NCBI GenBank assembly: GCA_007133195.1
Contig: SLNH01000234.1
Location: 1-34,571 of the forward strand
DNA from: Nannocystineae bacterium
GTDB lineage: Bacteria > Myxococcota_A > Polyangia > Haliangiales > Haliangiaceae
Length of the DNA stretch: 34,571 bases
Direction of reading: 5' to 3'
In this document: piece by piece, positions 6,108-23,475 of the stretch
How the letters are laid out: each line of letters opens with the position of its first letter
How positions within the stretch are numbered: position 1 is the first letter of the stretch
The notes under the pieces: model-generated
Seen by the model: only the letters and a program-made list of their open reading frames with translations
Database searches by the model: none
Told to the model about the DNA's origin: nothing
Made by a program: the position numbers and the translations under genes

Positions 6108-6127
6108 CTGCAGGGGCCAGCCTGCAG
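6108..6127. promoter_or_regulatory. perfect inverted repeat in the nadK/lipoprotein intergenic region
   Basis: Seven-base arms CTGCAGG (6108-6114) and CCTGCAG (6121-6127) flank a 6-base spacer. The centre is about 108 bases upstream of the start predicted from the sigma-54-like element at 6200-6215, a typical activator-site distance. The pentamers GCAGG and CCTGC recur, in the opposite order, in the repeats at 22661-22723. The rest of the 5938-6249 gap shows only the promoter candidate and the ribosome-binding site. Confidence 0.35.
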
Positions 6128-6199: not shown

Positions 6200-6215
6200 C
6201 GGCATCCGGCTTGCA
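6200..6215 (+). promoter_or_regulatory. candidate sigma-54 promoter for the poly-Asp lipoprotein
   Basis: CGGCATCCGGCTTGCA has GG (6201-6202) and GC (6213-6214) separated by exactly ten bases. The full TTGCA -12 block is present, and GGCA matches the -24 block (consensus TGGCACG-N4-TTGCW). The predicted start is near 6226, giving a leader of about 24 bases that contains the GGAGGA ribosome-binding site (6235-6240). Pattern match by eye only. Confidence 0.45.
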
Positions 6216-6249: not shown

Positions 6250-7503
<1,254 letters not shown>

Positions 7504-7594: not shown

Positions 7595-8926
7595 TCAGCG
7601 CGACCGCGGTTTCGGTTTGGGTTCGATCCCGTGCCGGCGCAACAGGTCGCGCAGGTGGTTTCTGTCCATGCCGGCGGTCCGAGCGGCCCGCGACAGGTTT
7701 CCGTCGTGCTTGGTCATGGTATCCGACAAATAGGCGCGCTCCCACGCCGCCATCGCCCGCGCCTTGGCTTCGCGGAACGTCTCGCCCGCGCGCGCCTCGG
7801 CGCTCACGCTCGCGTCGTCAGCAAAGGAGCCCTCGCCGAGCAACACCGCGCGTTCGACCGCGCTCTTGAGCTCTCGCACGTTTCCGGGCAGGCGCTGGTT
7901 TGCGAGGCGCGTGACGAGCTCTACCGGCGGCGCCTCGTCGTGCCCAAACTGGCGGAAAAAGTGCGCGACGAGCAGCGGGATGTCTTCAGGGCGGTCTCGC
8001 AGGGGCGGGAGCCGCAGCTTGATAGTGTTCAGCCGGTAGTACAGATCGGGGCGAAAGGTCTTGCGGTTGACCTCGCCGCGCAAGTCTCGGTTGGTCGCCG
8101 CGATGATGCGGACGTCGAGGCTCAAGGGGCGGCTCGAGCCGACCGGCGTGACCGAGCGCTGCTCCAAAACGCGCAAGAGCTTCGGTTGGGTGTCCGCGGG
8201 CAGCTCACCCACCTCGTCGAGGAACACCGTGCCGCCTCGCGCCGCGGCGAACGCTCCTTCGCGGTCGCTGTCCGCGCCGGTAAACGCGCCGCGCACGTGG
8301 CCAAACAGCTCGCTCTCGATGAGCGACGGCGAGATCGCCCCGCAATCGACCACGACGAACGGGCCATGATTTCGGCTGCCGAGCCCGTGGATGGCCTCGG
8401 CGACGAGGCCTTTGCCGGTGCCCGTTTCCCCCTCGAGGAGCACGGTGGCGTCAGAACCTGCGACCTTGGGCAAAACCGCGAACAGGCGTCGCATGGCGGC
8501 GCTCTCGCCGAGCACGGGGCCGTAGCGATCCTCGGCGGACAGCGGCTCTGCGAGCTCCTCGCCGAGGCCTTCGAGGAGGAGCTCGGTGCTGCCGAGCGAG
8601 ATCCGCGCCCCCGCCCGGGGCATGGCCTCCTTGACGCGGTGGCCGCCGAGCTTCGTGCCGTTGGTGCTGCCCAGATCCCGGAGCGAAAACCCCGCGTCCG
8701 AGACCGCGATCGCCAAGTGATGGCGGGACACGGTGGCGTCGCTCAGCACGAGGTCGTTGCCGCGCGCCGTGCCCACCGACAGCTCCGCGCTCGACGATGT
8801 GGCCCGCGCGCCCTCGTCTGGGCCCTTGATGACGCGGACCTGAAAGCGGGCGAGCTTCCGCTCGCGCTCGGACGAGATCGTTCGCGTGGCTGCGGGGCGC
8901 GTGTGCGGCGTTCGCGGACGGGGCAC
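7595..8926 (-). CDS. FHA-domain sigma-54-dependent transcriptional activator
   Basis: Enhancer-binding protein that would open sigma-54 promoters using ATP. Domain order in 443 residues: FHA phosphothreonine-binding domain at about 28-120 (SVGTARGND, SDATVSRHH, GSTNGT); AAA+ domain at about 135-370 with Walker A GETGTGKG at 166-173, GAFTGA at 213-218 (contact with sigma-54) and Walker B TVFLDEVGEL; C-terminal Fis-type helix-turn-helix (GNLSRAARTAGMDRNHLRDLLRRH). An FHA in place of a receiver implies activation by Ser/Thr phosphorylation. The start is GTG 8926 with AGGTGG six bases upstream; the longer frame to 9049 overlaps the kinase. It begins 10 bases after the kinase stop, which makes that kinase the obvious partner. 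Confidence 0.95.
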   Translation of the reverse strand: MPRPRTPHTRPAATRTISSERERKLARFQVRVIKGPDEGARATSSSAELSVGTARGNDLVLSDATVSRHHLAIAVSDAGFSLRDLGSTNGTKLGGHRVKEAMPRAGARISLGSTELLLEGLGEELAEPLSAEDRYGPVLGESAAMRRLFAVLPKVAGSDATVLLEGETGTGKGLVAEAIHGLGSRNHGPFVVVDCGAISPSLIESELFGHVRGAFTGADSDREGAFAAARGGTVFLDEVGELPADTQPKLLRVLEQRSVTPVGSSRPLSLDVRIIAATNRDLRGEVNRKTFRPDLYYRLNTIKLRLPPLRDRPEDIPLLVAHFFRQFGHDEAPPVELVTRLANQRLPGNVRELKSAVERAVLLGEGSFADDASVSAEARAGETFREAKARAMAAWERAYLSDTMTKHDGNLSRAARTAGMDRNHLRDLLRRHGIEPKPKPRSR

Positions 8927-8936
8927 CGCGGACCAC

Positions 8937-10355
8937 CTAGGAGCGGGCGCGCGCCCGCGCGGACGGGCCCTCGGGGATCGTGACGCCCTCGGTGGGCGCG
9001 CCGCCTTTGGCCGGCAGGTTGCACACCGGGCCCCCGACGACCTTGCCATCGCGGATGTGCGCGTCGCCGGCGTGCACTTCGTCTTGGATGTGGATGGACT
9101 CCGGCGCGCACGCGCGGAGCGCTGCGGCCAGTGTTTGGGCTTCGCGTACAGGATCCCCGCCGCCGGTCACGGGCTTCGCGTACGCGAGGGTGCGGCTGGC
9201 ACAAAGTAGCGGGTGAAACCCTTCCGCGCGGAGGCGCTGTTCGGTCCGGTCCAGAACACGCTCGAGCTCGGTCAAGACCACCGCCGGCGCCGCGCCGCGC
9301 GTCGCGGGGCACGCGTCGATGACGAGCGCGACCGCCCGACCGCGCGATTCCACCGGCCGATCGCGCGCGGCGCCAGCGCTTGATTCGAGCCCGCGCAGCG
9401 CTTCCATGAAGCGACGCGCGCCGGCAGGGCGGGCCGCCGGGTCCACCGCCATGGCGGCGACCACGGCGCGGTCGATCGCCTCGGGGACATCGACCTTCGC
9501 AGACGGCCGCGGCCGGCGCGCGTTTCGGTGTAGGTGCTGGAGCATCACCGGCGACTCGTTCGCAAACGGCCTTGTTCCGGTGAGCATGTGGTACCCGAGC
9601 ACGCCCAGCGCATAGACGTCGGTTCGCTGATCCACGGGCTCGCCGGCCAGCTGCTCGGGCGCCATACAGGCGGGCGTTCCGACGATCTGTCGCGATCGCG
9701 TAAGCCCGGGCCCTTCGTCGCCCAATAGCTTCGCGACGCCGAAGTCCAGTAGGACGACCCGCTCGCCGTCACCGGCCAAAAAGACGTTCGACGCCTTGAT
9801 GTCGCGGTGGACGATGCCCCGCTCGTGGGCCGCGGCGAGCGCGTCGCAAACCCGATCGAGCGTGGCGATCGCCTCGGTCGCGGGCATGGCGCCGCGCAGC
9901 GCGATGCGATCGGCGAGGCTTAGCCCGTGTAAGAGCTCCATGGCGAAAAACGGCCGGGCTCGATCCAGACGGCCGCGGCCCAGCACGCGGATGACGCTCG
10001 CGTGCTGGACGCGGGCCACGGCATCGACCTCGCGCTCGAACCGGGCGATGCTGTCCGTCGTGGTGGCGAGTTCCTCTCGGAGGACCTTGATCGCGACCGG
10101 TTCGCCTCTCGGATCGCGAGCGCGATAAACGTCCCCGAAGCCGCCCCGCGCCAAGAACGCCTCGATCTCGTAGGGCCCTGCGCGGTCGCCGGGGGCCAGA
10201 TCTCCGCCGCCCGTATGCCCGTCGTCGCGTAGGGCACCCGCGGGCGCGTGATCCGCCGCCGTCGTGTCGGACAGGGGGATGGTGTGAACGCCGCTGCCCG
10301 GCTCGTGGGAGCTTCCGCGAGCGGGGTCGAGGCGCGACCTGCTCGGCGAGCTCAT
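8937..10355 (-). CDS. Ser/Thr protein kinase with degenerate cyclase-like C-terminal domain
   Basis: 472 residues, no obvious membrane span. Kinase domain at about 60-320: GRG-type loop ARGGFGDVY, VAIKVL lysine, HRDIKASNV catalytic loop, LDFGVAK, GTPACMAPEQ. All key residues are present. The last 140 or so residues read as a worn class III nucleotide-cyclase fold: VALVIDACPAT, LERVLDRTEQRLRAEGF, and near the end IHIQDEVHAGDAHIRDGKVVGGPVCNLPAKG, which matches the usual helix-and-hairpin ending. The second metal-binding motif is not visible, so I expect no cyclase activity. It overlaps the upstream lipoprotein by ATGA and lies 10 bases from the FHA activator downstream. The likely role is phosphorylating the activator or its partner. 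Confidence 0.9.
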   Translation of the reverse strand: MSSPSRSRLDPARGSSHEPGSGVHTIPLSDTTAADHAPAGALRDDGHTGGGDLAPGDRAGPYEIEAFLARGGFGDVYRARDPRGEPVAIKVLREELATTTDSIARFEREVDAVARVQHASVIRVLGRGRLDRARPFFAMELLHGLSLADRIALRGAMPATEAIATLDRVCDALAAAHERGIVHRDIKASNVFLAGDGERVVLLDFGVAKLLGDEGPGLTRSRQIVGTPACMAPEQLAGEPVDQRTDVYALGVLGYHMLTGTRPFANESPVMLQHLHRNARRPRPSAKVDVPEAIDRAVVAAMAVDPAARPAGARRFMEALRGLESSAGAARDRPVESRGRAVALVIDACPATRGAAPAVVLTELERVLDRTEQRLRAEGFHPLLCASRTLAYAKPVTGGGDPVREAQTLAAALRACAPESIHIQDEVHAGDAHIRDGKVVGGPVCNLPAKGGAPTEGVTIPEGPSARARARS

Positions 10356-15998: not shown

Positions 15999-16631
15999 AT
16001 GGTCGCGAAGGCTGGACGCATAGGGGACAAGCGCCGCGGGCCCCCGCGCTCGCAGGAAGATGTGCTGAGTGCTGCCGCGCGCGCGTTTTCCAGGCGGGGC
16101 TACTTGGCCACGACGATGCGCGACGTCGCGAGCGAGCTCGGCGTAACCCCGGGCGCGCTGTACTCGTATTTCGACTCGAAAGAGAGTCTTTTCGGCGCGG
16201 TGGCCGAGCGCATGCGAAACCGCCTGCTCGATGCGATCGAGGCCCCGATGCCCGCGGGGTTGAGTCTCGAGCACGAGGTGGAGCTTTTGCTCCTCAGGCT
16301 GTTCGAGCTCACCGAGCGCTACCGCGGTGAGCTCGCCGCCTTCATCGACGCACCGGCCCTCGGCGTGGCCGATCGTCCGGGCGCGCGGATGCGCGGTTTC
16401 GAGCTCGTCCGGGGGCGGATCACCGAGTGGTTCTGTCAGCCCAAGCGGCGCGCCGCGCTCACCTGTGATCCCGCCATCGCCGCGACGACGTTTACGGGCA
16501 TGGCGATCGCCGTGATGCGTGTCCGGGTCATGCACGACGACAGCGATCCGCTCGTTCCACTGGCGCCGGTCGTGCGCGCTTTGTTCGTCCGCGGCGCGAC
16601 CGGCGACGCAGACGGCGGAGGTGATTTATGA
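15999..16631 (+). CDS. TetR-family repressor of the efflux operon
   Basis: 210 residues. The N-terminal TetR helix-turn-helix spans about residues 18-65 (VLSAAARAFSRRGYLATTMRDVASELGVTPGALYSYFDSKESLF), essentially a textbook match. The C-terminal ligand and dimer domain is variable, as normal. It probably represses its own operon from the TGTTTA/TAAACA repeat at 15972-15990 and is released by a substrate of the pump. The stop overlaps the adaptor start by four bases (ATGA), so the three genes form one translationally coupled unit. Start ATG 15999 with AAGGA just upstream. Confidence 0.95.
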   Translation: MVAKAGRIGDKRRGPPRSQEDVLSAAARAFSRRGYLATTMRDVASELGVTPGALYSYFDSKESLFGAVAERMRNRLLDAIEAPMPAGLSLEHEVELLLLRLFELTERYRGELAAFIDAPALGVADRPGARMRGFELVRGRITEWFCQPKRRAALTCDPAIAATTFTGMAIAVMRVRVMHDDSDPLVPLAPVVRALFVRGATGDADGGGDL

Positions 16632-18064
16632 GCCAGCCGGGCGCTGGCGGACCAGACCCCGAGGCCGGCGACATGGGGCCGGCCGAACGCGCGGACGCCG
16701 CCGGTGCGCGCCCCGTGGGGCCTGAGCCGAGCGAAGCCGAAAATCTAGCCGGCGGAGCCGCGGAGTCGGCCCGCGGGCCCGCCGCGCCCCGGCCGGGGCG
16801 CCTGAGGTGGGCGGTGCTCGCCGGGCTCGCGGCCGCCGTGATTCTGCTCTTCGTATGGAGCCCAGGTGGCGACGGCGGCGGGCCGGACGACCGCGGCGAC
16901 GGAGAGCGCGCCTCCACGGTCTCCGCCGGGGTCGTCGAGCGGGACGCGTTCGCCGAGCGCTCCACCTACCCGGGCGAGCTCACGGCGGACCGCGCGGATC
17001 TCGCGAGCAAGATCGGCGGTCGCGTCACGGAGGTGGCGGTGCGGACCGGCGACGAGGTCGAGCGCGGCGAGGTGGTCGCGCGCCTCGACGCCCGCCAACT
17101 CCGCGCTCAGCGCGAGGAGGCGAGCGCCCAGGTGGAGGCGGCCTCGTCCGCCGAGCGGCGCACGCGGGTGCAGCTCGAGGCGGCAGAGCGGGATCTCGAG
17201 CGGAACGAGCGGCTCGCCGAGCGAGACGTGATAAGCCAGCAAGACGTGGACGACGTGCGAGATCGCGTCGCCTCGCTCCGCGAGGACCTGCAGGGCGCGG
17301 CCGCCGAGCGGGCGCAGGCGCGCGCCCGCGTGAACTCGCTCGCCGCGGAGATCAGCGAATCGGCGATCGAGGCGCCGTTTTCGGGAACGGTGAGCGAGCG
17401 CTACGTGGATCCCGGTGACTTCGTGCAGTCGGGGGCGCGCGTGGTTCGGCTCGTGTCGGGCAGCCCGCTGCGCGTGGTGTTCGAAGTGCCCGAGCGCGAC
17501 GTCGGCGCTTTCGGCAAGGACGCCCCGTTCGATGTGCGGGCGCCGCCGACGCGAGGGGAGACGTTCCGCGGCCGCGTAACCGGCGCCGCGCGAGAGATCG
17601 TGCGCGAAAAGCGGATCGCGCGGGTCGAAGGGGCGATCGACGAAGCGCCAGATTCTTGGCTCCCGGGCATGTACGCCGAAGTGATCACGCCCAAGCGCGC
17701 GATGGACGACGCCCTCGTCATCCCGGACACCGCGCTGCTCTCGCGCCTGCGGCCCGACGGGGAGCTCCGGCACGGGGTGTTTCGGCCGGTGGACGGCGAG
17801 GCACAGTGGGTACCGGTGACTGTGCTTGGCGAGCAGGACGATCGCGTGGCCGTGGACGCAGACTTGGAGGCCGGCGATCGCGTGCTGGTAAGCGGCCACC
17901 GCGAGCTCGGGGACGGCCAGTCGATCTCGCTCGTTGGCGAAGACGACGACGATCCGGAGGCCTCCAGCGGCGCGGGGCAGGCCGGCGCCCCGGGGGAGGG
18001 GCCGGTGGCGGGCGAGGAAGAGCGGCACGGCGACGATGGCGCCGACGGCGAGGGAGGCGCATGA
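16628..18064 (+). CDS. RND efflux periplasmic adaptor (membrane fusion protein)
   Basis: 478 residues, linking an inner-membrane RND pump to an outer-membrane channel. A Pro/Ala/Glu-rich cytoplasmic leader (residues 1-58) precedes one membrane anchor (WAVLAGLAAAVILLFVW, about 59-77). Then come the lipoyl half (KIGGRVTEVAVRTGDEVERGEVVARLD), a coiled-coil hairpin rich in Glu/Arg/Ala (about 150-240), the second lipoyl half (IEAPFSGTVSERYVDPGDFVQSGARVVRLV) and beta-barrel and membrane-proximal domains (LPGMYAEV, ALVIPDTALL). The anchor is a signal-anchor, not a lipobox, and the leader is longer than usual. The C-terminus is an acidic Gly/Glu/Asp tail. It overlaps both neighbours by four bases. 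No outer-membrane channel gene is in the operon. Confidence 0.95.
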   Translation: MSQPGAGGPDPEAGDMGPAERADAAGARPVGPEPSEAENLAGGAAESARGPAAPRPGRLRWAVLAGLAAAVILLFVWSPGGDGGGPDDRGDGERASTVSAGVVERDAFAERSTYPGELTADRADLASKIGGRVTEVAVRTGDEVERGEVVARLDARQLRAQREEASAQVEAASSAERRTRVQLEAAERDLERNERLAERDVISQQDVDDVRDRVASLREDLQGAAAERAQARARVNSLAAEISESAIEAPFSGTVSERYVDPGDFVQSGARVVRLVSGSPLRVVFEVPERDVGAFGKDAPFDVRAPPTRGETFRGRVTGAAREIVREKRIARVEGAIDEAPDSWLPGMYAEVITPKRAMDDALVIPDTALLSRLRPDGELRHGVFRPVDGEAQWVPVTVLGEQDDRVAVDADLEAGDRVLVSGHRELGDGQSISLVGEDDDDPEASSGAGQAGAPGEGPVAGEEERHGDDGADGEGGA

Positions 18065-21000
18065 GACTCACCGAGACCGCGGTGCGCCGGCCCGTGGGGA
18101 CGGGCATCTTCTTCGCCGCTGCCATCTTGCTCGGGCTGGTGTCGGTCAACCGGTTGGCCGTAGACCTTTTGCCCGAGATCGACTTTCCTCGGATCTCGAT
18201 CACGACGCAGTACGACGGCGTCGGCCCCGAGGAGATGGAGACGCTCGTCACCCGTCCCATCGAGCAGACCGTGTCGACGGTCGATGGGCTGGAGGAGATC
18301 AATGCCGTCTCGTCCGAGGGACTGAGCCGCGTCAGCCTCCGGTTCGCGTGGGGGACGAACCTCGACACGGCCGTCAACGACGTCCGCTCCTACCTCGATC
18401 GCGTCGCGAACAACCTCCCCGACGACGCCGACAACCCGGTCATCTACAAGTTCGACCTCGCGGCGATGCCCGTGGCCACGGTTGGCCTGAGCGGGCCGGG
18501 CGATCCCCGTCAGCTGCGCCACATGGCGGACGAGACCGTGAGCGAGCGCCTCGAGCGCGTGCCGGGCGTCGCCAGCGCCGGCGTGCGCGGCGGACGAGAG
18601 CGCGAAATCCGCGTCGAGCTCGACGTCTCACAGCTCACCTCGCTCGGCGTGACCTCGGGGCAGGTGAGCGAGGCGCTGTCTCGGGACAACCGCAACGTGT
18701 CCGCGGGCGAGATGATGGGCAGCGGGCGCGAGGTGCTCGTGAGAACCGTGGGCGAGTGGGAGTCCCCCGCCGAGATCGAGAATGTCCTCGTCACGGTCAA
18801 AGACGGGCGGCCCGTGTACGTGCGCGATGTGGGCGAGGTGCTCGATACCTTCAGCCGGGTCAGGAGCGAAACCTGGGTAAACGGTGAGCCGGGGGTCACG
18901 CTGCGGGTGTCGAAGCAGAACGAGGCGAACACGATCGAGGTCGTCGAGGGCGTGAAGGCGGAGGTGGAGCGCTTAAACCGCGACTACGAGGGGCAGCTCC
19001 GCGCAGACATCCTGTTCGACTCGTCCGGCTTCATCGAAGACTCGGTGACGAACGTGCAGGCCTCGGCCGTCTACGGCGCCGGTCTCGCCATCATCGTGCT
19101 CTTCCTGTTCCTCCGCAATCTTCGGGCCACGGCGATCATCGCGCTCGCCATCCCGCTCAGCGTGGTTTCCACGTTCGCGCTCATGTACTTCGCCGGCTAC
19201 ACGCTGAACGTCATCTCGTTCGGCGGCCTGGCGCTGGGCATCGGGATGCTCGTGGATAACGCGATCGTCATCCTCGAGAGCATCTACACCAAGCGCGAGC
19301 AGGGGAAAAAGCGAGCCGCCGCCGCGATCGAGGGAACCCGCGAGGTCGGCACCGCCGTGGTCGCGGGCACCGTCACCACCATCGCGGTGTTCGCGCCGGT
19401 GCTGTTCGTCGGCGACTTCGCCGGGGTGTTTTTCGGGGAGATGGCGGCGGTGGTGGCGTTCGCGCTGCTCTGCTCGCTCGTCGTCGCCCTCACGCTGATC
19501 CCCTCGCTCGCGGCGCGCTTCATCGCGATCCGCCGGGATGGGGGGCTCGGCCAGCGGGGCGTCGTCGCGGGCCTGCGGAGCGCGGGGGCTGCGCTCGGCC
19601 GAGGCGCGGCGGTGGTGGAGCGGGGCTATCGGCGCGTGATCGAGGGAGCGCTCCGCACGCCGTGGTTCGTCGTCGGATGCGCCATCCTCCTTCTCGTCGC
19701 GAGCCTGCGCCTTCTTCCCGCGGTGGGCTTCGAGCTCATGCCGGAGACCGACGAGGGTCGCATCAACATCGACGTCGAGATGCCCGTGGGCACGCCGCTT
19801 CCGGAGACGACCGAGGTCGTCAAACAGTACGAGGCGCTCGTCCACGAAGTCGCGGACGAAGGCGAGATCGAAAACATCCTCAGCTCGGCCGGGCCCCGTA
19901 ACTGGTGGCGGCCCGGCGGGACCCACGAGGGGAGCCTCCGGGTGAACTTCGTGCCGGTAGACGAGCGCGATCGGGGGCTCGACCAGTTTATGAGCGACCT
20001 TCGCGAGGTGAAGCCCGACATCCCGGGCGCCTCGATCCGCATGCGCAAGAGCTCGTCGAACATGCTCATGCGCATGATGCGCGGCGGCTCTCAAGACGGG
20101 GAGCGGCTCGCGGTGGAGATCCGCGGGCACGATCTCGACACCGCCGCCGCCCTGTCGGCGCAGGTCGAGGAGTCGATGGAGGACATGGAAGGGGTGACCG
20201 GGATCCGCGTAGACCGGGAGGAGGGGCTCGAGGAGCGAGCGGTCCGCGTGTCGGCGGAGCGCGCGGCCGACCTGGGGCTGAGCCGGTCCGAGGTCGCGGA
20301 TACGGTGGAGAGCTATGTTCTTGGCCGCGTGGCGACCAGGCTCCGCGAGCGCGGCGACGAGTACGACGTGCGCGTGCAGCTCCGCGAGGAAGATCGTTTG
20401 GACATTCGGCAGCTGGGCGCGCTGCCCATCATGACGAGCGACGGTCGCGCCGTTCCGTTGTCCTCGGTGGCGGAGTTTCGCGGGAGAGAAGGGCCCACGT
20501 CGATCTCGCGCGAGGCGCAGCAGCGGGTGGTGCGGGTTTACGGGGGGCTCACCGACCGCGCGCTCAGTGAGGCGGTCTCGGAGCTGCGCACCGCGCTCGA
20601 TGGGATCGAGAGGCCCGAGGGCTTCACCCTCGCGATCGCGGGAGAATACGAGGAGCAGCAGGAGACCTTCGGCGGCCTGATCGTGGGCATCATCCTGGCG
20701 ATCCTCCTCGTGTACGCGGTGATGGCCGTGCAGTTCGAATCGCTGCGCCACCCGCTCGTGATCATGGTCGCCATCCCCTTCGGTTTCATCGGCGTGGTGC
20801 TGTCGCTCGTGGTCACCGGCACCACGTTCAACATGAACTCCTTCCTGGGCGCGATCGTGCTCGTAGGCATCGCGGTCAACAACGCGATCGTCCTCGTGCA
20901 CTACACGAACGTGCTCCGGCGCGAGCACGGGCTCGAGCTCAAACACGCGGTGGTCACGGCAGCGAACCGCCGGCTTCGGCCGATCCTCATGACGACGCTC

Positions 21001-21195
21001 ACGACGGCGCTCGCGATGTTGCCGCTGGCGCTCGGCCTCGGGGCGGGCAGTGAGATCCAGGCGCCGCTCGCGCGGGTGGTGGTGGGCGGCCTTTTGGCCT
21101 CCACGCTGGTCACCCTGGTCCTCGTGCCCACGCTGTACTACTTGATGGAGCGGGGCCGGCCCGACATCCGGCTCGAGGACGAAGATCGCGACTAG
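18061..21195 (+). CDS. RND efflux transporter, AcrB-like (HAE-type)
   Basis: 1044 residues from ATG 18061, which overlaps the adaptor stop (ATGA); the frame is open further upstream but that overlaps the adaptor. Proton-driven inner-membrane exporter. It starts with the typical MRLTETAVRRPVGTGIFF first span. The first porter loops include DFPRISITTQYDGVGPEEMETLVTRPIE. In TM4 the motif GMLVDNAIVILE has Asp399 followed by Asn400, where AcrB has two Asp (407/408). The second half repeats the fold (PWFVVGCAILLLVASLRLLPAVGFELMP; FNMNSFLGAIVLVGIAVNNAIVLVHYTN). The DN form occurs in a recognised subset of RND pumps, so it should work. Substrate unknown; TetR control suggests export of hydrophobic or toxic compounds. 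Nine bases separate its stop from the converging gene. Confidence 0.96.
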   Translation: MRLTETAVRRPVGTGIFFAAAILLGLVSVNRLAVDLLPEIDFPRISITTQYDGVGPEEMETLVTRPIEQTVSTVDGLEEINAVSSEGLSRVSLRFAWGTNLDTAVNDVRSYLDRVANNLPDDADNPVIYKFDLAAMPVATVGLSGPGDPRQLRHMADETVSERLERVPGVASAGVRGGREREIRVELDVSQLTSLGVTSGQVSEALSRDNRNVSAGEMMGSGREVLVRTVGEWESPAEIENVLVTVKDGRPVYVRDVGEVLDTFSRVRSETWVNGEPGVTLRVSKQNEANTIEVVEGVKAEVERLNRDYEGQLRADILFDSSGFIEDSVTNVQASAVYGAGLAIIVLFLFLRNLRATAIIALAIPLSVVSTFALMYFAGYTLNVISFGGLALGIGMLVDNAIVILESIYTKREQGKKRAAAAIEGTREVGTAVVAGTVTTIAVFAPVLFVGDFAGVFFGEMAAVVAFALLCSLVVALTLIPSLAARFIAIRRDGGLGQRGVVAGLRSAGAALGRGAAVVERGYRRVIEGALRTPWFVVGCAILLLVASLRLLPAVGFELMPETDEGRINIDVEMPVGTPLPETTEVVKQYEALVHEVADEGEIENILSSAGPRNWWRPGGTHEGSLRVNFVPVDERDRGLDQFMSDLREVKPDIPGASIRMRKSSSNMLMRMMRGGSQDGERLAVEIRGHDLDTAAALSAQVEESMEDMEGVTGIRVDREEGLEERAVRVSAERAADLGLSRSEVADTVESYVLGRVATRLRERGDEYDVRVQLREEDRLDIRQLGALPIMTSDGRAVPLSSVAEFRGREGPTSISREAQQRVVRVYGGLTDRALSEAVSELRTALDGIERPEGFTLAIAGEYEEQQETFGGLIVGIILAILLVYAVMAVQFESLRHPLVIMVAIPFGFIGVVLSLVVTGTTFNMNSFLGAIVLVGIAVNNAIVLVHYTNVLRREHGLELKHAVVTAANRRLRPILMTTLTTALAMLPLALGLGAGSEIQAPLARVVVGGLLASTLVTLVLVPTLYYLMERGRPDIRLEDEDRD

Positions 21196-22142: not shown

Positions 22143-22625
22143 TCACGCGGCGGAGGGGTGGTGCGGCCCGCGGCCGGGGCCGCCTCGGGGCTGGCCGATC
22201 GCCGACAGGGAGCGCACGACCTCGCGCGCGTCCACGCCGTCCGTGCGACCGGTCGCCGCGCCCCGCGTGATGTCGTTCATCGACAAAAATCCGATCGGGC
22301 GGTTTTGGTCATCGACGATCGGGATTCGCCGAACCTGTCTCTCGGCCATCATGCGATCGGCCGTGTCCACGGTGTCGCTCGGCCGGCAGGTGACGACCCC
22401 TTTCGTCATGATGTCGCTTACGGGAATCTCCTGCGGGGCCTTGCCCTGGGTATAGGCGGCCATCGCGATGTCGCGATCCGTGACCACGCCTGCGACGCGC
22501 CCCTCGTCGTCGGTGACGGGCAGACAGCCGATATCCTGTTCCCACATCTGTCTCGCCGCGGCGTGCGACATCTCGTGCATGCTGCAGCTGATCACGGAGT
22601 CGGTCATGAGCTCTGCGATGCGCAT
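22143..22625 (-). CDS. tandem CBS-domain protein
   Basis: 160 residues made of two CBS motifs, a fold that usually binds adenine nucleotides (ATP, AMP or similar) and senses energy or redox state. The first is VSDIMT-like at the start (IAELMTDSVISCSMHEMSHAAARQMWEQDIGCLPVTDDEGRVAGVVTDRDIA); the second begins VSDIMTKGVVTCRPSDTVDTADRMM and ends IPIVDDQNRPIGFLSMNDITRG. A Gly/Pro/His tail follows. AGGAGAG sits just upstream of ATG 22625. It is divergent from the DUF4142 gene, so the repeats at 22661-22723 lie in its upstream region too. The partner is unknown; stand-alone CBS pairs of this kind are common in stress regulons. Confidence 0.95.
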   Translation of the reverse strand: MRIAELMTDSVISCSMHEMSHAAARQMWEQDIGCLPVTDDEGRVAGVVTDRDIAMAAYTQGKAPQEIPVSDIMTKGVVTCRPSDTVDTADRMMAERQVRRIPIVDDQNRPIGFLSMNDITRGAATGRTDGVDAREVVRSLSAIGQPRGGPGRGPHHPSAA

Positions 22626-22660
22626 GTGTCTCTCCTGGCTAGCGTGAGTAAATCCCCTGT

Positions 22661-22723
22661 GGGATGCGGGCGCCTGCTAGGCAGGTTCAGCAGGGATGCG
22701 GGCGCCTGCTAGGCAGGTTCAGC
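22661..22723. repeat. two tandem copies of a 32-bp repeat with central inverted repeats
   Basis: Unit copies start at 22661 and 22693, with 31 consecutive identical bases in each. Each copy holds the inverted repeat CCTGC-TAG-GCAGG, centred at 22679 and 22711. The 32-base period is about three helical turns. The repeats lie between divergent genes and upstream of the sigma-54-like promoter at 22765, at about -112 and -80. This fits a double activator site. There are only two abutting copies with no spacer, so it is not CRISPR. Confidence 0.85.
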
Positions 22724-22737
22724 GAGGGCCGGCCCTC
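22724..22737. promoter_or_regulatory. 14-bp perfect palindrome
   Basis: GAGGGCCGGCCCTC directly abuts the second 32-bp repeat and precedes the promoter candidate by 27 bases. It may be a regulator site or a hairpin; no family match is recognised. Confidence 0.4.
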
Positions 22738-22764
22738 TCGGCCGGGGGCGCAGCCCGATCGACA

Positions 22765-22780
22765 TGGCTTGCCGGTTGCT
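22765..22780 (+). promoter_or_regulatory. candidate sigma-54 promoter for the DUF4142 gene
   Basis: TGGCTTGCCGGTTGCT matches TGGCACG-N4-TTGCW at 10 of 12 defined positions, with the obligatory GG (22766-22767) and GC (22778-22779) exactly ten bases apart. The predicted start is near 22791, 55 bases before ATG 22846. The tandem repeats upstream sit at typical enhancer distance. Confidence 0.6.
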
Positions 22781-22845
22781 TCGCGGACAGCTAGCGGCGG
22801 AGCGACGGCTTGTGCGCTCGGCCCGACTCGAAAGGAAGGTTCATT

Positions 22846-23475
22846 ATGTGGCAAAGCAGGCTCATCGCATGGCTAGCGCCGATTGCCGCGCTCGTATTCG
22901 TATTCGCGCCGCGCGCCGAAGCCCAGGAGATGCCGCCGGAGCACGACATGCCGCCGGAGCACGAGATGCCGCCGGAGCAGGACATGCCACCGGAGGAGGC
23001 TCCCCCGATGGACCCGGAGATGCCGGAGATCGAGGATCCCCACCCGCTCGTGGTCATGCACGCGATCAACCAGATTCAGTCTCAGCTCGGGCTGATGGGC
23101 ATCAACGAGGCCTCGGACGACGACGTTCGCTCGTTTGCCGAGGAGCTCACCGAACAGCACGATGAGCTCGATCGCGAGCTCCTGGGCACCGCGAACGACC
23201 TCGACATCGAGGTCGCCGGCACTGGCGCGGTGCGCATCGCGATGGAAATGCAGCTTCAAGAGTACGAGCCGCAGCTTCAGACGCTGATGCAGGCCCCAGG
23301 CGAGGAGTTCGACGACGCATTCCTCGACATGGTCAACCAAAGCCAAGCTGACGCGATCGAGGCCGTGGAGGCGCTGCGCGACGAGGTGGAAGAAGATGAA
23401 GTCGAAGCGCTGCTGGAGCAGTCGCTCGAGCGATACCAGGCGCACCAACAGCGGGCCCAAGAGCTCGCTGAATAA
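22846..23475 (+). CDS. exported DUF4142-like protein
   Basis: 209 residues from ATG 22846, with AAGGAAGG six bases upstream. The signal peptide is MWQSRLIAWLAPIAALVFVFAPRAEA, cut before Gln-Glu, so the protein is predicted to be periplasmic or outer-membrane. Four six-residue repeats follow (MPPEHD, MPPEHE, MPPEQD, MPPEEA) and then an acidic helical domain. The domain has the DUF4142 look: VRSFAEELTEQHDELDREL and FDDAFLDMVNQSQADAIEAVEALRDE, with few conserved metal-type residues. DUF4142 proteins are ferritin-like helical bundles of unknown role often linked to stress. It has its own sigma-54-like promoter and is followed 110 bases later by mtfA on the same strand. Confidence 0.85.
   Translation: MWQSRLIAWLAPIAALVFVFAPRAEAQEMPPEHDMPPEHEMPPEQDMPPEEAPPMDPEMPEIEDPHPLVVMHAINQIQSQLGLMGINEASDDDVRSFAEELTEQHDELDRELLGTANDLDIEVAGTGAVRIAMEMQLQEYEPQLQTLMQAPGEEFDDAFLDMVNQSQADAIEAVEALRDEVEEDEVEALLEQSLERYQAHQQRAQELAE
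22930..23001 (+). repeat. four 18-bp in-frame repeats (MPPE.. hexapeptide)
   Basis: Four 18-base units, the first three nearly identical, encode MPPEHD/MPPEHE/MPPEQD/MPPEEA right after the signal peptide. Likely a flexible Pro/Glu stalk; copy number may vary. Confidence 0.9.

Follow-up and report, generated by a model that had tools for sequence, protein, structure and literature searches.

A candidate sigma-54 promoter with a tandem upstream repeat before a DUF4142 gene in a Nannocystineae bacterium

NmpR, a sigma-54 activator of Myxococcus xanthus, switches on genes for a CBS protein and a universal stress protein together with a P-type ATPase/cbb3 oxidase operon; the NmpR-controlled CBS gene is raised by hypoxia, and the 15-bp NmpR sites, GCGCA-N5-TGCGC, form pairs that are mostly 14-15 bp apart (PMC11841059). 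The Nla28 regulon of the same organism has the half-site CT(C/G)CG(C/G)AG and a sigma-54 consensus of TGGCACG-N4-TTGC(T/A) (PMC9765219). The locus described here lies in a 34,571-nucleotide stretch of DNA from a Nannocystineae bacterium (the window) and comprises a -24/-12 element, two tandem repeats upstream of it and a DUF4142 gene downstream. Clustered repeat sites upstream of sigma-54 promoters are a feature that it shares with the Nla28 regulon (PMC9765219). Nla28 half-sites with two mismatches numbered 7 in the window as compared to 5.6 expected from shuffles, and no clustering of such half-sites above chance was found. A search of 22501-22764 for NmpR sites, allowing at most two mismatches, found none, and the window promoter does not carry paired GCGCA-N5-TGCGC sites with an intact GCA-N5-TGC core. 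Sites for NtrC, NifA, NmpR and Nla28 were all considered for the control region and were absent or at chance level.

The gene behind the promoter (22846..23475, + strand) encodes a 209-aa protein whose translation matched DUF4142 (Pfam PF13628, E=3.7e-18), the family to which a previous sequence-only reading had assigned it. The start of the protein is signal peptide-like. An 18-bp coding repeat at 22927-22995 encodes the MPPE(H/Q)(D/E) repeats seen in the translation, and the stretch after the signal peptide is rich in Met, His and acidic residues; an RND efflux system is encoded at 16628-21195. The Met/His/acid-rich stretch could be a metal binder.

The element TGGCTTGCCGGTTGCT is located at 22765..22780 (+ strand), 65 bp before the start of the DUF4142 gene. 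It agrees with TGGCACG-N4-TTGCW at 10 of the 12 specified bases, having GG at -24 and GC at -12 with the fixed spacing, and was the top-scoring sigma-54 site of the whole window in a PWM scan (15.1 bits when this element was left out of the matrix). The sequence-only reading had called it near-consensus, which these values bear out. When the C of TTGC (22779) is counted as -12, transcription is predicted to start at 22791 (+ strand), and a ribosome-binding site, AGGAAGG, is found at 22833..22839 (+ strand). A sigma-54 promoter with 22765-22780 as its -24/-12 element would give a leader of about 55 nt ahead of the DUF4142 gene, which would stay off as long as the closed complex has not been remodelled by an AAA+ enhancer-binding protein. 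The sigma-54 reading is well supported, and we have very little doubt that the element is a real sigma-54 promoter; that the promoter is in use is what we infer.

Both rpoN and AAA+ activators are present in the genome (5.64 Mb, 496 contigs), the former as a single copy and the latter as about 30 sigma-54 activator domains. A very improbable alternative is that the -24/-12 match arose by chance and that another promoter reads the DUF4142 gene. The genome total is what speaks for it, since TGGCN7TTGCW occurs 68 times, not above the 73 occurrences of the reversed control pattern. The matches, unlike the controls, cluster directly before genes. Among the first 30 TGGCN7TTGCW sites, 22 were without coding signal and 17 of these stood within 80 bp before a frame-opening ATG, while only two of the first 30 reversed-pattern sites were without coding signal and none stood within that distance of such an ATG, the coding/non-coding split being approximate because the coding score came from a home-made codon model. 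A position in non-coding DNA directly ahead of a gene was more frequent for the element than for the control (17/30 vs 0/30). Codon bias acts differently on the two patterns, and the excess of TGGCN7TTGCW before starts is too large for codon bias alone. All site scans consisted of pattern searches and the inspection of individual stretches of the genome.

The recurrence of such elements ahead of DUF4142 genes also stands against a chance match. The second DUF4142 gene of the genome (C204) has TGGCGCGAGGATTGCT 45 bp ahead of its ATG together with an AGGAGG ribosome site, and no sigma-54 element was found for the third, which is of a different subtype. Among relatives, 7 of 30 DUF4142 genes had, 8-90 bp from the start, a site with a score of 9 or more (0.57 expected from shuffles), and many were without a good element. 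The gene divergent from the DUF4142 gene (22143..22625, - strand) encodes a 160-aa CBS-domain protein (Pfam PF00571, E=4.9e-28). It has no sigma-54 element of its own, the best upstream PWM score being 2.2 bits. Eight of the 29 homologues of this gene had an element with a score of at least 10 as compared to 0.2 expected, the start codons of the relatives in these counts being automatic assignments that may be wrong in individual cases. These elements are present, their placement is non-random and they recur in the lineage.

In this genome, elements of this kind precede, among others, genes for a universal stress protein, a P-type cation ATPase, a nitroreductase, a flavodoxin, a DUF378 protein, a Zn-dependent dehydrogenase, a DksA-type zinc finger protein, a SnoaL protein and a Crp-type regulator, a list that resembles dormancy or low-oxygen gene sets. 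In this lineage, the DUF4142 gene is probably a member of a sigma-54 gene set of the stress or low-oxygen type, and the signal inducing its promoter would presumably be of that kind. With a sigma-54 promoter, the gene has a type of switch that is already common in the group. The sequence-only reading had described the DUF4142 protein as having no known regulator. That description has to be qualified: sigma-54 elements recur before the DUF4142 and CBS genes of the lineage, and a related set of CBS, USP and P-type ATPase genes is controlled by NmpR in Myxococcus xanthus (PMC11841059). For DUF4142, a widespread family whose function is not known, a concrete form of control by sigma-54 can be proposed.

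The distance between element and start codon showed a further pattern. At the 51 sigma-54-like sites of this genome that were without strong coding signal, an ATG followed the element after 12-14 nt in 19 cases, 11 of them at 13 nt, the mean being 0.83 per offset. Examples in this genome are L020, L028, L030, L046, L047, L100, L101, L109 and L114, and offsets of 12-14 nt were also seen in relatives (L186, L190, L191, L193, L006, L167 and L178). Many of the genes in this class are lipoprotein-like. Elements placed 12-14 nt before the ATG have predicted leaders of about 0-4 nt and therefore imply nearly leaderless sigma-54 mRNAs, which raises the question of how ribosomes translate sigma-54 transcripts that have next to no leader. 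The DUF4142 promoter, with its offset of 65 and its ribosome site, falls outside this class.

Upstream of the promoter, GGGATGCGGGCGCCTGCTAGGCAGGTTCAGC occurs twice on the + strand, at 22661..22691 and at 22693..22723. The first copy contains the dyad CCTGC-TAG-GCAGG at 22673-22685 (centre 22679, -112) and the second contains it at 22705-22717 (centre 22711, -80). The copies are identical at 31/31 positions and are 32 bp apart from start to start; TRF reported a tandem repeat at 22661-22728 with a period of 32 and a score of 129. A 14-bp palindrome, GAGGGCCGGCCCTC, follows at 22724..22737 with its centre at about -60. The sequence-only reading had recognised the two tandem 32-bp repeats centred on this dyad, a 14-bp palindrome, the repeat centres at about -112 and -80 from the predicted start and a spacing of three helical turns. 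All of these descriptions were confirmed, the centres falling at -112 and -80 with the C at 22779 as -12, and 32/10.5 being 3.05 turns. When the 125-bp region was shuffled with a Markov model, at least one dyad with 5-bp arms and a 3-bp centre appeared with P=0.22, and inverted repeats with arms of at least 7 appeared in 14.5% (P about 0.15 for the 14-bp palindrome). The dyad core alone and the palindrome are, thus, at chance level, and the 31-bp duplication is beyond chance. Since the spacing of a tandem duplication is its unit length, the same-face spacing adds little, and the second dyad and the 32-bp spacing come free of charge because both arrive with the duplication.

Based on the position of the repeats, it is hypothesised that the two 32-bp units, located about 65-130 bp ahead of the start, most likely carry the paired binding sites of an activator, one dimer of which would occupy each dyad on the same face of the DNA, and that DNA looping would carry the activator to the promoter. 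Binding of an activator is predicted from the DNA sequence, the enhancer reading is plausible, and on balance we take the repeats to be activator sites. The claim of the sequence-only reading that this is an enhancer-binding-protein control region held in part: the geometry fits, but the site does not recur in the genome or in relatives, shares no motif with other promoters and matches neither NmpR nor Nla28 sites. Two dyads on one face of the DNA are present upstream, a picture that duplication alone would also give, and a site recurring at co-regulated promoters or conserved in relatives was not found. As a genome-wide regulon site the repeat was rejected, only the two window copies being found when as many as 3 of 23 bases were allowed to differ. 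The dyad pair matched in 8 of 290 genomes of the class (its own included), none of the matches resembled the window unit, and the reversed dyad-pair pattern gave a similar number. No close DUF4142 orthologues suitable for footprinting the repeat were found. A LexA-like reading of GTTCAGC was set aside on account of a spacing that we take to be unlike that of the Myxococcus LexA box.

These observations leave appreciable room for another account, less probable than activator sites, in which the sigma-54 promoter is genuine, the 32-bp repeat arose recently as a neutral tandem duplication and the activator acts from elsewhere, e.g. at the 14-bp palindrome or a degenerate site. The identity of the two copies extends over dyad and spacer alike and speaks for recent duplication as much as for selected sites. 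The repeat occurs nowhere else in the genome, its dyad is at chance level, this promoter is the only one with such a repeat among the non-coding sites examined, and other complex tandem duplications of similar size are present in the approximately 0.4 Mb examined (L112, L130). Such duplications do not in themselves prove a function. Nevertheless, the unit lies at the usual distance of an enhancer and the dyads are three helical turns apart, which favours paired activator sites.

The repeats also occupy the interval between two divergent genes, at a distance of 36-98 bp from the start of the CBS gene, and might be an operator of that gene or a shared control of both genes whose regulator is not a sigma-54 activator. 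The lack of an own -24/-12 element before the CBS gene fits such an operator, but its homologues in relatives tend to carry their own sigma-54 element and the upstream DNA of these homologues does not contain this dyad. We regard this explanation as unlikely. Taken as a whole, the best explanation is a sigma-54 promoter with the repeats as paired activator sites, in a stress or low-oxygen gene set, to which we assign a probability of roughly 60%.

Whether other sigma-54 promoters of the genome share upstream sites was addressed by an EM motif search in two promoter classes, in which no convincing common upstream motif was found; the likelihoods were inside the shuffle range, save small excesses in two runs. 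At one other locus (L042), tandem copies of GTCACCGCTGG and a GTCACC-GCT-GGTGAC dyad lie shortly upstream of TGGCGCGCCCCTTGCA and form a further candidate activator site, whose sequence differs. In a broader and tentative reading, the lineage would use sigma-54 with several activators, one of them with the CCTGC-N3-GCAGG pair, for a broad dormancy/low-oxygen set in which many promoters are nearly leaderless. It is conceivable that this set comprises DUF4142, CBS, USP, nitroreductase, P-type ATPase and flavodoxin genes. The CCTGC-N3-GCAGG pair could, on the same tentative footing, be an activator site so far undescribed.

The window encodes an FHA activator (7595-9049, - strand, from sequence analysis) about 14 kb from the DUF4142 promoter. 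As the binder of the repeats it gained no support from its gene neighbourhood: its best relatives, which come from Polyangium and other myxobacteria, adjoin genes for protein kinases, and neither a sigma-54 promoter nor a DUF4142, CBS or USP gene was detected in their flanks. Nothing solid ties the FHA activator to the DUF4142 promoter. A Ser/Thr protein kinase gene adjoins the FHA activator gene in the window (7595-10355) and at L212, L213, L215, L240 and L249, an arrangement shared by several myxobacteria that suggests control of the activator by a kinase. Beside the FHA activator gene, a candidate sigma-54 element, CGGCATCCGGCTTGCA, lies at 6200-6215 before a lipoprotein-like gene (6250-7503), and upstream of this element is an inverted repeat, CTGCAGG-GGCCAG-CCTGCAG (6108-6127), which has the half-sites GCAGG and CCTGC in common with the window repeat, in the opposite order and a different arrangement. 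Such a half-site pair appeared in 0.6% of shuffled 220-bp regions, a figure for a case noticed post hoc, and related loci contained 7 half-site pairs in 190 kb. The inverted repeat showed no conservation in relatives. It is a weak lead to the FHA activator.

Compared with a generic NtrC-type enhancer, the locus has the same -24/-12 element and paired dyads about 80-112 bp upstream on the same helical face, and differs in its dyad arms of only 5 bp with a 3-bp centre and in that its activator, and the binding and activation by it, are putative. The NmpR regulon differs in its site, GCGCA-N5-TGCGC as compared to CCTGC-N3-GCAGG in the window repeat, and DUF4142 is absent from the text of the NmpR paper (PMC11841059). 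In a genome of the same family (L190), three NmpR-type sites, one of them perfect, lie upstream of the element TGGCGCACGCCTTGCT of a CBS gene; the NmpR oxygen circuit may, going by these sites, reach this family, well beyond Myxococcus. The DUF4142 promoter resembles the NmpR regulon in its two upstream dyads about 30 bp apart from centre to centre at a sigma-54 promoter, in the position of the repeats between divergent genes, as for the sites of mxan_4236, and in the CBS-domain, universal stress and P-type ATPase genes among the targets (PMC11841059). These likenesses set DUF4142 beside CBS and universal stress genes, whose oxygen-linked control by sigma-54 is shown in Myxococcus xanthus.
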